In this document: positions 12,423 to 18,097 of the stretch, piece after piece
Position numbering within the stretch: the stretch's first letter is position 1
Layout of the letters: every line of letters starts with the position of its first letter
Assembly: GCF_022921115.1 (NCBI RefSeq)
Contig: NZ_CP095075.1
Span: 744,001 to 808,000, forward strand
DNA: 64,000 nucleotides
Direction: 5' to 3'
From: Halobacillus amylolyticus
GTDB taxonomy: Bacteria > Bacillota > Bacilli > Bacillales > Halobacillaceae
Notes under the pieces: generated by a model
Told to the model about the DNA's origin: nothing
What the model saw: only the letters and a program-made list of their open reading frames with translations
Databases searched by the model: none
Translations under genes and position numbers: made by a program

Positions 12423-12896
12423 TTAGTTAAAAGTGACGGCCAAATTAGCCTTGGCAATTTTGTTAAAAGGCACCTCTAGTTGCTTTGTGCGTGTTTTAAT
12501 ACGGATATCTATGGTTGCCGTTTCGCCTTCGAATTGTACGAGTGTACCTTCGAACTCTTTCTCATTATCAATAGGTTCATATAATTTCATATAAATATGT
12601 TCACCTACATACTTCTTAAAGTCCTCCTTCGTTTTCAGAGGACGTTCAGCGCCAGGAGAGGAAACCTCTAAAAAGTATGGAAGATCAATTGGATCGATTT
12701 CATCTAATTGTTCGCTCAACCTTTCTGAAACTTGACCACATTCTTCAATGTCAATCCCTTCAGGTTTATCAAGGAATACGCGAAGAAACCAGTTCTTACC
12801 TTCTTTTTTAAATTCGATATCTACAAGTTCAAGATTCATCTCTTTAACAATAGGTTTCACTAGTTCTTCTGTAATCTCTGTTACATTTTTACTCAT
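12423..12896 (-). CDS. rimP: Ribosome maturation factor RimP
   Basis: Assists 30S maturation (YlxS in B. subtilis). The 157-residue product shows the family blocks [19 protein letters not shown] (20-38), [15 protein letters not shown] and [20 protein letters not shown], the last being the RimP signature. It heads the nusA-infB operon. The ATG is preceded by AAAGGAGGGATTCC. Confidence 0.96.
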
Positions 12897-13004
12897 ATGG
12901 AATCCCTCCTTTTTACTCCTGTTTATTGCCGAATTGCTGCAATCATATACTTATTTTGCTAAGGAAAGGACTAATTTAACCCTTGTTCCCGTTTCGAAAG
13001 GAAA

Positions 13005-13027
13005 CCGCTATGATGAAATCATAGCGG
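13005..13027 (-). terminator. Hairpin upstream of rimP
   Basis: CCGCTATGAT and ATCATAGCGG pair perfectly around a three-base loop; on the minus strand the stem is followed by TTTCCTTTC, a broken T-run. It probably ends or attenuates transcription coming from polC. Confidence 0.6.
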
Positions 13028-13094
13028 TCTTCTCGTGCAAGAACAGATCACTCCTACGGGCAAGTTCTAAGTAAAAGTGAGCCGTAAATATAAA

Positions 13095-13122
13095 CGAAAG
13101 AGTGGGTTTCCCCACTCTTTCG
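13095..13122 (-). terminator. Putative terminator downstream of polC
   Basis: Perfect 12-bp arms CGAAAGAGTGGG and CCCACTCTTTCG surround a four-base loop; TTTATATTT follows on the minus strand. This is the best transcription stop between polC and rimP. Confidence 0.7.
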
Positions 13123-13189
13123 CTCGTCTCTATCGCTCTTCTCACCATAAAAAATATACCATAGATACTACATTTATGCAATAGGGGGC

Positions 13190-13310
13190 CGAAAAGCGGA
13201 AAGGGGCGCTTAGACCTGAAACGCATAAGCAGAGCGGTGCAGTGGGGTGATCTTCCCCCACGGAAGCGAACTGCTTATGTCGCGAAGGTCTGCCCCTTGC
13301 AGCTAGACAG
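13190..13310. repeat. Structured intergenic repeat, copy 1 (GAAAAGCGGAA...GCTAGACAG type)
   Basis: Begins CGAAAAGCGGAA and ends AGCTAGACAG. It folds as nested stems: AAGGGGC with GCCCCTT, AGACCT with AGGTCT, ATAAGCAG with CTGCTTAT, and GTGGGG with CCCCAC around a TGATCTT loop. Similar GCGGAAG...GCTAGACA repeats are, from memory, common between genes in Bacillaceae, but no function is established. Copy 2 follows directly. Confidence 0.75.
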
Positions 13311-13492
13311 AGAAAAGCGGAAGTGCCCGGGTAGACACGACAGAGGAAGTTCGACTAAGATCGGCACGTCCTGTGCCAACGTCGAACTGACCCGCGTCCT
13401 GCGGGCCCAAGCAGAGCGGTGCAGTGGGGTGATCTTTCCCCACGGAAGCGAACTGCTTATGTCTCGAGTGTCTGGGCACTGCAGCTAGACAG
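13311..13492. repeat. Structured intergenic repeat, copy 2, with inserted GTCCT-hairpin module
   Basis: Same outline as copy 1 (AGAAAAGCGGAAG to AGCTAGACAG), with the same inner hairpin (GCAGTGGGGTGATCTTTCCC region). Outer arms differ in a compensating way: AGTGCCC pairs with GGGCACT, and AGACAC with GTGTCT. About 75 extra bases at 13333-13408 hold two hairpins with a GTCCT loop, GGCAC-GTCCT-GTGCC (13363-13377) and CCCGC-GTCCT-GCGGG (13391-13405), the first enclosed by GTTCGAC/GTCGAAC. It ends 12 bp from the polC stop codon. Confidence 0.75.
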
Positions 13493-13504
13493 CCATTCCA
13501 CTTT

Positions 13505-16500
13505 TTAAAATAGCGATAGTTGGTTCTCATCAGGCATACCAGCCAGGCAGCCTTGATTATCCAAATATTCAAGCACCGTTTTCGAAATACGGCTGCGTTC
13601 TCTTAAATCCTGCTTGGAGAGAAACTCCCCTTCTCCACGGGCATTAACAATATTAATCGCTGCGTTTGTACCTAAACCATCGACAGCATTGAATGGAGGA
13701 ATCAGTTGATTACCGTCAACAATGAAATCTGTCGCGCTTGATTCATAAAGATCAACACTCTTAAAGCCGTATCCTCGTTCACACATTTCTAGAGACAATT
13801 CAAGCACTGTCATTAAGCTCTTCTCTTTAGGTGTAGCATCCAGGCCCTTCATTTGGATCTCTTCAATTCTTTTTCGAATCGCATCAGAACCCTTAATCAT
13901 CGTCTCTAATTCAAAGTCACTTGCTCTTACCGTAAAGTACGCAGCATAAAAGTAAATCGGGTAATGAACCTTAAAGTAAGCAATCCGGACGGCCATTAAT
14001 ACGTAAGCCGCCGCGTGAGCCTTCGGGAACATATACTTGATTTTTTTACATGAATCAATGTACCAATCTGGAACACCATTCTTCTTCATTTCTTCGATCC
14101 ATTCATCCTGAAGACCACGCCCTTTTCGGACAAATTCCATGATTTTAAAGGCTAAGGATGGCTCAAGGCCTTTATGCATGAGATAAACCATGATATCGTC
14201 ACGACAGCCGATCACTTCAGGCAATGTACAAATACCGTCATTTATGAGCTGCTCGGCATTGCCAAGCCATACGTCTGTACCATGTGACAGACCAGATATG
14301 ATGACGAGTTCAGCAAAGGTCTTTGGCTTTGTATCTTCAAGCATCTGCCGGACAAATCGAGTACCAAATTCAGGAACACCAAGCGTACCAGTTTTACACA
14401 TAATCTGTTCAGCGGTTACACCTAAGGCTTCAGGCCCACTGAAAATTTTCATTACTTCAGGATCGTCAACAGGGATTTCTTTTTGATCAATGCCGCTTAA
14501 ATCTTGAAGCATGCGAATCACTGTTGGATCATCGTGTCCGAGAATATCAAGCTTCAGTAAATTATCATGAATCGAGTGGAAGTCAAAGTGGGTTGTTTTC
14601 CACTCTGACTTCGTATCATCTGCCGGGAATTGAATCGGTGAAAAATCAAAAATATCCATGTCGTCAGGCACAACAATGATGCCCCCTGGGTGCTGTCCTG
14701 TTGTTCTTTTGACGCCCGTACAGCCTTGAACAAGACGATCGACCTCTGCATTTTTATATTGCAGCTGGTGGTCACCTGCGTATCCTTTCACGTATCCATA
14801 GGCCGTTTTTTCAGCAATTGTACCAATCGTTCCAGCCCTATACACATTGTCTTCCCCAAATAAAGTTTTCGTATAATTATGGGCATGTGGCTGATACTCA
14901 CCGGAGAAGTTCAAATCAATATCGGGTACTTTGTCACCTTTAAAACCAAGGAACGTTTCAAAAGGGATATCCTGCCCGTCTTTTTTATAGGCCGTCCCAC
15001 ATTCAGGACAATCTTTTTCGGGAAGATCAAATCCGCTGCCGATGGACCCATCCGTGAAAAATTCATGATGTTGACAGTTTGGACAAACGTAATGGGGCGG
15101 CAAAGGGTTCACTTCAGAAATATCTGTCATTGTTGCAACCAACGAAGACCCTACCGATCCACGTGAACCGACTAAATACCCATCCTCAAGAGATTTCGTT
15201 ACGAGCTTTTGCGAGATTAAGTAAATAACGGCAAAACCATTGCCAATGATACTCTCAAGCTCTTTATCTAATCTTTTTTCTACAAGCTCTGGAATTGAAT
15301 CCCCATACAGTCTCTTCGCTTTATTGTAGGACATTTCCCGGATTTCTTGATCGGCTCCTTCAATGTTTGGTGTGTACAAATCTTCCTTGACTGGATTGAT
15401 CACATCAATGTTATTATTCAATCTATTTGTGTTAGTGACAACAACTTCTTTTGCTTTCTCTTCCCCTAAAAAGGAAAACTCTTCAAGCATCTCGTTTGTG
15501 GTTCTAAAATGAACATCTGGCAATGTTTGACGATTGAGCGGGTTCCCATTTTGTGAAGAGATAAGGATTTGCCGGTACATCTTATCATGGGGATCGAGGT
15601 AGTGGGTATTCCCTGTAGCAACAACAGTTTTCCCCAAACGATCACCCATATCGACAATCTTTTTTAGAATGTCATAGACTTGCGCCTCATTTTGGACTAA
15701 ATCCTTTTCGATCAAGTGTGCATAATTGCCCGGAGGCTGTATTTCAAGATAATCGTAGAATTCAGCAACCTTCTCTGCTTCTTCTGCGGATTTCTGCATC
15801 ATCGTCTCAAAGACTTCCCCTTTATCACAGCCTGATCCAATCAGAATACCTTCACGAAGTTTAGCAAGCCGTGACCTTGGCAGACGTGGAACACGATAAT
15901 AATAGTTTAAGTGGGCCTCTGAAACAATTTTGTACATATTTTTAAGACCTATACTATTGACAGCAAGTAATGTGACATGAGAAGGCCGTGACCGTTGATA
16001 GGCTTTGCCTTCACCCATGTAATCATTTAGATTCATATGGTTGGTAATTTCTCGTCCAATAGCTTTCTTTACCAGTTTCCACATTAAATAACCTGTTACC
16101 TCAGCATCATAGATCGCTCTATGGTGTTGAGTTAGTTCAATATCAAAATGCTTACAGAGTGTATTTAATCGGTGGTTCTTAAGCTCGGGAACTAGAAATC
16201 TAGCAAGTTCAAGTGTATCAATGACAGGGTTAGGAGCTTTCGGATAATCGATCCTTTGAAAACCAGCATTAAGAAAGCCCATGTCAAAACTAGCATTGTG
16301 GGCTACTAAAATGTCATTGGCCATCCAATTATGGAAATCCTTCAACACGTCATCAATTTCAGGGGCATCATTCACCATGTCATCGGTAATTCCTGTTAAA
16401 TCAATAGTTGTCTGGGATAGAGGATGATGCGGGTTGGCAAAGGATTCAAACCGATCAATGATTTCCCCGCCTTTTACTTTGACTGCAGCGAGTTCAATAA

Positions 16501-17800
16501 TTTTGTCATACACAGCAGACAACCCTGTCGTTTCCACGTCAAAAACGACATACGTATCGCTTTCAAGGTCGCGATCCTGCTCTTCATAAGCAATCGGTAC
16601 TCCATCATCAACTAGGTTTGCTTCCATTCCATAAATCACTTTAACGCCATGTTTTTGACCAGCAGCATGTGCCTCAGGATAGGCTTGAACAACAGCATGG
16701 TCGGTTATAGCGATCGCCTCGTGACCCCAGTTTGCAGCTTGGGCGATCAGTCTGGGAGCTGAAACGGGTGCATCCATTTGACTCATCGTCGTATGGGCAT
16801 GCAGCTCTACTCGCTTCTCTCCTTCTTCCGCCTCATCTTTACGAAGTTTTGGAGCCATTTCATTAATATCATTGGCCATCATCGTTAATTCACTTGTAAA
16901 GTTATCTGTTTGGATACTCCCTCGGGCCTTGATCCACATTCCTTTTGTGACGTGCTTAAACATCTCAGCATGATCATCCCCGCGCGAGAACATCTTAATT
17001 GAAAATGAATCCGTGTAATCGGTCGCTTTTATAAGTAAAAGGTGGCGTCCGGAACGTAATTCTTTAATGTCGGCATCAAAGACATATCCTTCAATAATTT
17101 TCCTTCGTTCTTCCTCTTCAATGTTTTCCATTGGCTCTGCATCTTCCTGGATCTTATAGCCAATTTCAATGGGCCCTTTCGGTTTCGTATCCTCTTCTTT
17201 CTCCTTCGCACGTTCTTCCTGTTCTTTGACAGCTTTTTGAACAAGCTGTTTATCTTCTTTCTGCCGCTCTTCCTGAAACCTTTTTAATTCTTCCTGTTCT
17301 TCCTTCACACGTGTAGACAGCATCAGTGATGGCAGACCAGATTGAACACAAAAACTCTGCAATGGAGTGTCTAATTTCTTCTTCACTGCATGACTCTCCG
17401 CCAAGTTTCTACAAGTTAACATAATTTTATTTCCGTTAATTTCTGGCTGTTGCTCCATAAGTAAATCCTTGTAACCAGGATTTAAATTGGGCATGGACTG
17501 GATAAATCCTTTCCAGTACTCATTAATAGCGTCTGGATCTACACCTTTATCTGCTGCTTCAAACGTCCAGTCCACTTCTGCAATGGAACGGAACGCGCTC
17601 TGCAGCTTACTAATAAACAATTGATAAACAGAAGGTGGCAGTACACTTGGAATACTAAAGTGAAAATGCCACTTTTTTTCTGCTTTATATACGATCAGTT
17701 TCTCAAGTGAGCTATCTTTAAAATGAGGCTCAATCAGATCTTGTGGAAACTGGATTTGCTCCAATAAATAATGCATTTTTTCCTGATTGGTCACACCCAA
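13505..17800 (-). CDS. polC: DNA polymerase III PolC-type, alpha subunit with proofreading exonuclease
   Basis: Main replicative polymerase of low-GC Gram-positives. From TTG at 17800 (preceded by GGGAGG) the product is 1431 residues, against about 1437 in B. subtilis. Order: N-terminal domain, OB-fold (about 225-310), PHP domain interrupted by a DnaQ-like exonuclease (FDVETTGL and HNASFDMGF), zinc-binding CPNC...CPEC, then the polymerase core with [12 protein letters not shown] and the palm, and fingers with [19 protein letters not shown] longer frame to 18067 would translate repeat element C and has no similarity, so it is rejected. A Glu-rich coiled region lies near residues 165-235. Confidence 0.97.
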
Positions 17801-17872
17801 TGTGATTCCTCCCTGTAGGGGTAAATAAAACAAAGTGTCTATGCCCTCACTATTTGACTCGGGATAGACATA

Positions 17873-18097
17873 CTTAAAGAGGATGTTCAAAAAACACCAT
17901 GATAAACGGCGAATTTCTTCGTTGCTCGGTTTTTTCCGGTCCTCACGTATGAAAGGCATACGGCTTGCGATCCTCAAAACTTTCGCGGCTCGAACTTTGC
18001 GACGCGCAAGGAACGTGCTAGTGTCGACTTTGTCACAGGAGGTGACGATCTTTGTCGACGTTCTCATTCGTCAACTTTTTGAACACACACTTAAAGA
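17873..18097. repeat. Intergenic inverted-end repeat element C
   Basis: About 225 bp between polC and proS. Left end TTAAAGAGGATGTTCAAAAA; right end on the other strand TTTAAGTGTGTGTTCAAAAA. The left interior shares GGCGAAT.TCTTCGTTG and TCACGTAT with element A, and the block CACGTTCC/ACGTGCTAGTGTCGAC with element B. A hairpin GTCAC-AGGAG-GTGAC (18032-18046) is enclosed by GTCGAC arms, homologous in layout to the module at 13348-13387. No coding potential of its own. Confidence 0.75.

Follow-up and report, generated by a model that had tools for sequence, protein, structure and literature searches.

The two structured repeats that stand side by side behind polC in the window (the whole 64,000-nt stretch of the Halobacillus amylolyticus genome analysed here) are probably two members of a non-autonomous family of hairpin-forming repeats that is interspersed through the genome and acts in the manner of REP elements. 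In the mechanism we propose, one strand of each copy would fold, whether in RNA or in single-stranded DNA, and a candidate enzyme would recognise this fold when copies move or multiply. Behind stop codons, copies would be tolerated and possibly even useful.

The repeat pair between polC and rimP

The sequence-only reading described two adjacent repeats with common ends, a common inner hairpin and outer arms that differ between the copies and remain complementary, and each of these elements is present. The copies occupy positions 13191-13310 and 13312-13492, 1 base apart; copy 1 opens with GAAAAGCGGAA and copy 2 with GAAAAGCGGAAG, and both close with AGCTAGACAG. The shared hairpin tip GTGGGG/CCCCAC lies at 13242-13247/13256-13261 in copy 1 and at 13424-13429/13438-13443 in copy 2, and the unlike arm pairs can be read directly in both copies. 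The features are as follows.

13191..13310, plus strand: copy 1, the basic unit of the AGGGGC/AGACCT subtype, without insert (blastn to own genome, fold)
13201-13207/13292-13298 and 13212-13217/13286-13291, plus strand: outer arms of copy 1, AAGGGGC/GCCCCTT and AGACCT/AGGTCT (sequence, fold, covariation)
13223..13279, plus strand: long inner hairpin of copy 1, GCATAAGCAG ... CTGCTTATG, with its GTGGGG/CCCCAC tip at 13242-13261 (sequence, fold)
13312..13492, plus strand: copy 2, the same envelope in the GTGCCC/AGACAC subtype, with a Bacillaceae-1 module inside (sequence, fold)
13322-13328/13474-13480 and 13333-13338/13468-13473, plus strand: outer arms of copy 2, AGTGCCC/GGGCACT and AGACAC/GTGTCT (sequence, fold)
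13339..13405, plus strand: Bacillaceae-1 RNA module (RF01690) nested in copy 2 (Rfam, 78.1 bits, E 1e-12, gathering threshold 35)
13409..13458, plus strand: inner hairpin of copy 2, AAGCAG ... CTGCTT, with its tip at 13424-13443 (sequence, fold; 13411-13460 also folded alone)
13505..18067, minus strand: open frame named polC from its sequence; its stop codon and the 3' end of copy 2 lie 12 nt apart
12423..12896, minus strand: rimP (NCBIfam RimP, 223.5 bits)

Each copy is predicted to form one long interrupted hairpin, in which a free 5' GAAA precedes a three-pair AGC/GCT foot, followed by a small internal loop, two outer arm helices and the long inner hairpin. In copy 2, a 67-nt insert, which is a full-length Bacillaceae-1 sequence scoring well above the 35 bits at which Rfam assigns RF01690, takes the place of a portion of the inner stem's 5' strand, a feature that the sequence-only reading missed, as it did the modular and mobile nature of the repeats; copy 1 matched no Rfam family up to E 1. 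Both copies fold more stably than shuffled sequence (z -5.1 for copy 1, -3.7 for copy 2 and -4.9 for both with flanks), and in none of the three tests was any shuffle as stable as the native sequence.

The pair sits between the polC stop codon (13505) and promoter-like sequence upstream of rimP, antisense to both genes. Because of this orientation and its place before the rimP promoter region, the pair is most likely a tolerated passenger. A blastn search of plasmid and phage collections, from which near relatives may be absent, gave no match at E 1e-5. Elsewhere in the window, a second Bacillaceae-1 match (41 bits, 18004-18070, minus strand) lies upstream of polC within another repeat frame, GTTCAAAAAGTTGC...GAACGTCGAC, which recurs elsewhere in the genome.

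Covariation and spread of the repeat family

A blastn search with the repeats found 54 matching stretches in the 4.30-Mb genome, which is assembled as two contigs. We aligned 13 module-free copies without using structure (A1: 12 typed copies from this genome together with copy 1) and built the covariance model R1 from these 13 Halobacillus sequences. R1 scores copy 1, itself one of the 13 model-building sequences, at 136.6 bits (13192-13309) and copy 2 at 61.7 bits (13377-13491), and has 39 matches genome-wide, including no fewer than two reverse-strand echoes. The wide distribution in Bacillaceae that the sequence-only reading mentioned can now be put in numbers. All 44 genomes of the GTDB family have R1 matches, from 1 to at least 83 per genome among the matches listed, and at E 1e-5 the model, with up to 12 candidates scored per genome, is found in 212 of 299 genomes sampled from the order, representing 81 of 116 genera.

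The unit is about 118 nt long and has conserved ends, GAAAAGC on one side and GCTAGACA or GCTGGACA, with variants, on the other. Its usual architecture comprises the three-pair foot, the internal loop and arms that change freely yet remain complementary, and the differing arms of the window pair exemplify two among several subtypes that recur across this genome rather than a one-off change. End motifs alone are not diagnostic, given the pattern counts in this genome versus reversed controls (GAAAAGCGGAAG with one mismatch allowed, 68 versus 44; GCTAGACA, 61 versus 86). One subtype, ending in GCTGGATG or GCTAGATG, has a conserved 3' extension (loci L248, L250, L271, L275 and L313, and own-genome copies G000:C1:1608364, 3111270 and 423390). 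The extension reads GGCTAACTTCATGTAAGCTTATCCACA in L248, L250, L271 and 423390 and there contains TTATCCACA, which we take to be DnaA-box-like; this motif is altered in the others.

That the fold is what is kept, as the sequence-only reading claimed, is borne out by strong covariation, which we gauged over 35 pairs by counting paired changes against shuffled and slid alignments. In A1, 17 of the 35 pairs show double changes and 97.1% of cells are paired, giving a score of 0.453 versus 0.175 for shuffled alignments (reached by 0 of 500 shuffles) and 0.055-0.101 for slid controls. Two larger alignments were fitted to the R1 model and hence lean towards its fold: A2, 139 distinct family copies from the best 150 of 211 matches, has double changes at 30/35 pairs, 95.5% of cells paired and a score of 0.537 versus 0.182 shuffled; A3, drawn from the order's other families (102 distinct copies, including two antisense echoes), has 34/35 pairs, 94.1% and 0.691 versus 0.191. 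Chance palindromes are ruled out by the shuffles and slid controls. At A2 pairs that are not commonly G-U, 79 G-U cells stand against 35 A-C cells on the element plus strand; this points to the plus strand as the one that folds, with the reservation that the excess may partly be an artefact of picking copies with an RNA model and that one column supplies 23 of the 79. For the Bacillaceae-1 module, the same count (6 against 4) is uninformative.

Placement behind stop codons

The sequence-only reading tied its case to a preferred position relative to genes, and such a position exists. For each cluster of copies we took the nearest long reading frames (simple long-ORF calls) and compared the observed distances with uniform placement in the gap. 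The first set comprises 99 clusters, which similarity of the flanking proteins reduces to 63 independent loci. At 27 of these loci the upstream gene runs in the same direction as the repeat, and in 18 such cases the 5' end of the repeat lies 0-11 nt past the sense stop codon, against 2.63 expected (0 of 20,000 simulations). The 3' end came that near a convergent stop at 0/40 loci (5.25 expected), and start codons showed no such attraction for the 5' end (3/36; 4.84 expected) or the 3' end (1/23; 2.22 expected). A second set, fetched afterwards from other families and including some orthologous loci, has the 5' end 1-5 nt past a stop at 16/26 loci versus 2.24 expected, with controls of 0/25, 2/37 (the 3' end at a stop) and 0/14 versus 2.26, 3.08 and 1.42 expected. 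To our reading of the results, stop-codon docking of these repeats is new.

These counts depend on how loci were chosen. Sixteen Thalassobacillus loci that sit inside a larger repeat were omitted from a first listing of gene positions; set 1 excluded the same 16 plus three others, and of the 39 own-genome matches it drew on 18 loci, with array members merged and weak, partial or large-repeat-nested copies set aside. Set 2 dropped two antisense echoes and two clusters at locus ends, and retained four G302 loci lying within a larger repeat. In set 1, the docked stop codons (TAA 14, TAG 3, TGA 1) do not differ clearly from those of other flanking genes (20, 6 and 3). Docking is also not universal: 9/27 and 10/26 co-directional loci lie elsewhere than behind a sense stop, the same holds where the upstream gene is divergent (36 and 25 loci), and the window pair is itself an exception, being antisense to polC, whose stop codon lies 12 nt from the pair's 3' end.

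Docking could reflect either an insertion preference or selection. At docked sites the hairpin foot begins within about 10 nt of the stop codon, and transcripts of the upstream gene would thus carry a 3'-UTR hairpin starting a few nucleotides after the stop. By analogy, such hairpins may tune or protect the upstream mRNA, because the distance equals that at which E. coli REPs lower translation: according to the accessible part of PMC12306157, REPs within 15 nt of a stop codon stall ribosomes.

The same placement would be expected if the repeats were conserved cis-acting 3'-UTR regulators, selected site by site and spread only by occasional duplication, a reading that we consider rather unlikely. 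Besides docking itself, it draws on copies that follow mreB-like, murA, argS, def and ribBA genes in related species (names by NCBIfam), and on argS in particular, where an array directly follows the native stop codon in 3 of 30 loci, from three related genomes, and a T-tailed hairpin is retained after the array in one of them (G024). The argS frame ends natively, with SAPEKM or a similar C-terminus, in all 30 loci; however, the other 27 gave no model match at E 0.01. Site-by-site selection also sits poorly with the scatter of identical copies and with the finding that related species have unlike subtypes at shared sites (argS, mreB-like). Such differences would fit arrays whose members are replaced over time at a site long in use; independent insertion is the alternative.

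Mobility, nested modules and known repeats

Several observations bear on how copies of the REP-like repeat that we favour may spread. The polC-rimP gap is empty and 223-229 nt long in H. andaensis, H. sp. A5, H. sp. P3879 and H. massiliensis, and in H. hunanensis, which has the closest named RimP (87% identical), it measures 668 nt and holds other repeat pieces. Among 31 named rimP-region loci, R1 matches (up to E 0.1) occur in three. A tandem pair in Evansella tamaricis (L142:6561-6800) occupies the same polC-rimP gap in the same orientation, with ends as in the window pair and a different inner sequence; the matches in T. devorans CECT 7046 and Anaerobacillus arseniciselenatis lie at other genes. 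One Thalassobacillus devorans genome has identical 119-nt bodies at four loci, within a larger repeat, genome G302 has three identical copies, and own-genome copy 1558932 carries mismatched arms from two subtypes, as if it had recombined between them.

Arrays of two or more copies are of single orientation in 33/33 clusters of A2 and 31/31 of A3. In 103 cases of a first copy followed by another left end, the linker matches the array's own left flank at 1.84 of 4 positions versus 1.45 when permuted (0/5000), and at all four positions in 15; the significance is overstated because the loci are not all independent, orthologous arrays having been counted separately. These linkers suggest that arrays grow in place, carrying a few flanking bases along. 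In genome G006, the large repeat that encloses the T. devorans bodies, which also hosts Bacillaceae-1, occurs with an R1 unit (GGAAAG-unit-CGAG) and without one (GGAAAGCGAG), and this filled-versus-empty comparison, made on one genome's repeat, revealed no target-site duplication. This larger structured repeat of Bacillus relatives, a few hundred nucleotides long and host to both modules, is itself present in many similar copies (L398-L417, L218-L237).

The Bacillaceae-1 module is physically part of copy 2. Nevertheless, the envelope lies outside the Rfam model, exists without the module and is wider in the family (44/44 genomes versus 32/44). The 12 genomes lacking a Bacillaceae-1 match have 1 to at least 83 envelope matches, and among the matches listed the numbers of envelopes and modules show at best a weak correlation (Spearman 0.27, p 0.08); because 12 genomes carry the envelope only and the numbers are hardly related, the two are separable. 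RF01690 has 50 matches in the H. amylolyticus genome, 47 of them above the cut-off, and the module occurs at different positions there: after the outer arm (copy 2), in the inner hairpin's tip (as a comparison of 3287562 with 3287440 shows) and inside another module (3906360). By eye, it occupies five different repeat frames. Near-identical Bacillaceae-1 copies at G000:C1 816410, 833045, 1609060, 3600661, 3874925 and 1527611 have a common frame, GTGGCCTCGCTACTCACGTATCATGAGGC or close to it, and are possibly the rRNA-linked form.

A bolder reading, which we regard as unlikely, is that the repeats are order-wide mobile elements whose enzyme joins the 5' foot of the folded strand to the ends of reading frames, building one-orientation arrays in the manner of an integron without cassettes, and that Bacillaceae-1 is a second, independently mobile, hairpin-lodging module rather than an sRNA gene. 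Integron attC sites fold as single strands, with conserved ends and variable complementary arms, and stand in arrays behind stop codons; their 3' box is GTTRRRY. Our repeats resemble them in fold, conserved ends, variable arms and arrays behind stop codons. They differ in their 3' box, GCTRGAC (GCTAGAC or GCTGGAC, with variants), and in that their units are consecutive, without cassette genes.

Rfam files Bacillaceae-1 as Gene; sRNA, and the motif also appears in a table of PMC2864571 (accessible part). This label is what favours a family of small RNAs with their own promoters, acting in trans, or a variant in which the reverse strand of Bacillaceae-1, on which the accessible part of PMC4333381 describes CsrA-like motifs, sequesters CsrA. 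We think either version quite improbable. The most module-rich genomes have 78, 88 and at least 89 module matches among those listed, with many equal scores in the last, the module is spread over five repeat frames, and the envelope exists without it in 12/44 genomes. Around the pair, a consensus scan, which is weak evidence, found two promoter-like matches versus 0.7 expected and, within 12850-13650, no terminator-like site, in which a T run would follow the hairpin.

The repeats might also be nothing but selfish DNA, REPIN- or MITE-like elements moved by a Y1 (RAYT) transposase and without a host role, as their palindromic, interspersed nature, their arrays and their REP-like stop-codon bias could suggest. 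The H. amylolyticus genome has one Y1 gene, RAYT-like (L121, G000:C1:3763222-3766551), but this gene is flanked on both sides by a palindrome of its own, CACCTCAGGTCATCCAATTTCTGGATGACCTGAGGTG. PF01797 (Y1) is matched in 33/44 family genomes, and copy number is no different with and without it (means 27.1 and 29.0, p 0.78, among the matches listed). Of 38 Y1 loci, five were doubles, leaving 33 distinct neighbourhoods, most of about 3.3 kb and 12 of 15-18 kb. An envelope match at E <1e-6 lies about 3 kb away in four, and none was found at that threshold in the other 29. Three of the four (G002, G010, G013) are one orthologous locus, where genes intervene between the Y1 gene and the array and the Y1 gene stands amid other repeats. 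At a separate locus in G016 (L350:12153-12267), a weak 38-bit envelope match stands some 3 kb away from a Y1 gene only 33% identical to that of the shared locus. Y1/RAYT is excluded as the general agent because the 11/44 genomes without a Y1 match still carry 2 to 82 envelope matches (among the matches listed), which makes Y1-driven selfish DNA a very improbable account.

Returning to the REP-like repeat, E. coli REP/BIME elements are likewise interspersed extragenic palindromes, clustered and in many cases directly behind stop codons, and our copies are extragenic, interspersed and often clustered. However, the family belongs to another phylum, its units are about 118 nt rather than 20-40, it carries exchangeable modules and it has no general Y1/RAYT association. 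The accessible part of PMC3733652 gives a GTAG or CGTC tag at one end as the rule for REP/RAYT and terminal inverted repeats of 15-30 bp as the rule for MITEs. The family ends (GAAAAGC and GCTAGACA/GCTGGACA, with variants) have no such tag, and they pair only through the three-pair AGC/GCT foot before the internal loop. Because these defining features are absent, we file the family outside REP and MITE proper, as a distinct kind among the interspersed structured repeats that resemble REPs and MITEs. Bacillus relatives have other intergenic stem-loop repeats, bcr1 of the Bacillus cereus group (147-167 bp) and Bhal-1 of B. halodurans (74 bp, 36 copies), which we compared by description rather than sequence from the accessible part of Petrillo 2008 (PMC2267715); Bhal-1 may correspond to the Bacillaceae-1 module or to part of the present family. 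Beyond the cited papers, a search of open PMC full text found no description of the envelope, which may have appeared earlier in print, and the short end strings returned nothing on bacterial repeats among the matches listed.

More broadly, a family found in 212 of 299 genomes of the order now has one measured description, where Rfam holds only an embedded piece of it, labelled as an sRNA. If docking is functional, these repeats would constitute a REP-like layer of gene control in Gram-positive bacteria. If it is instead an insertion preference, it would point to an enzyme, still to be discovered, with folded single strands as its substrate.
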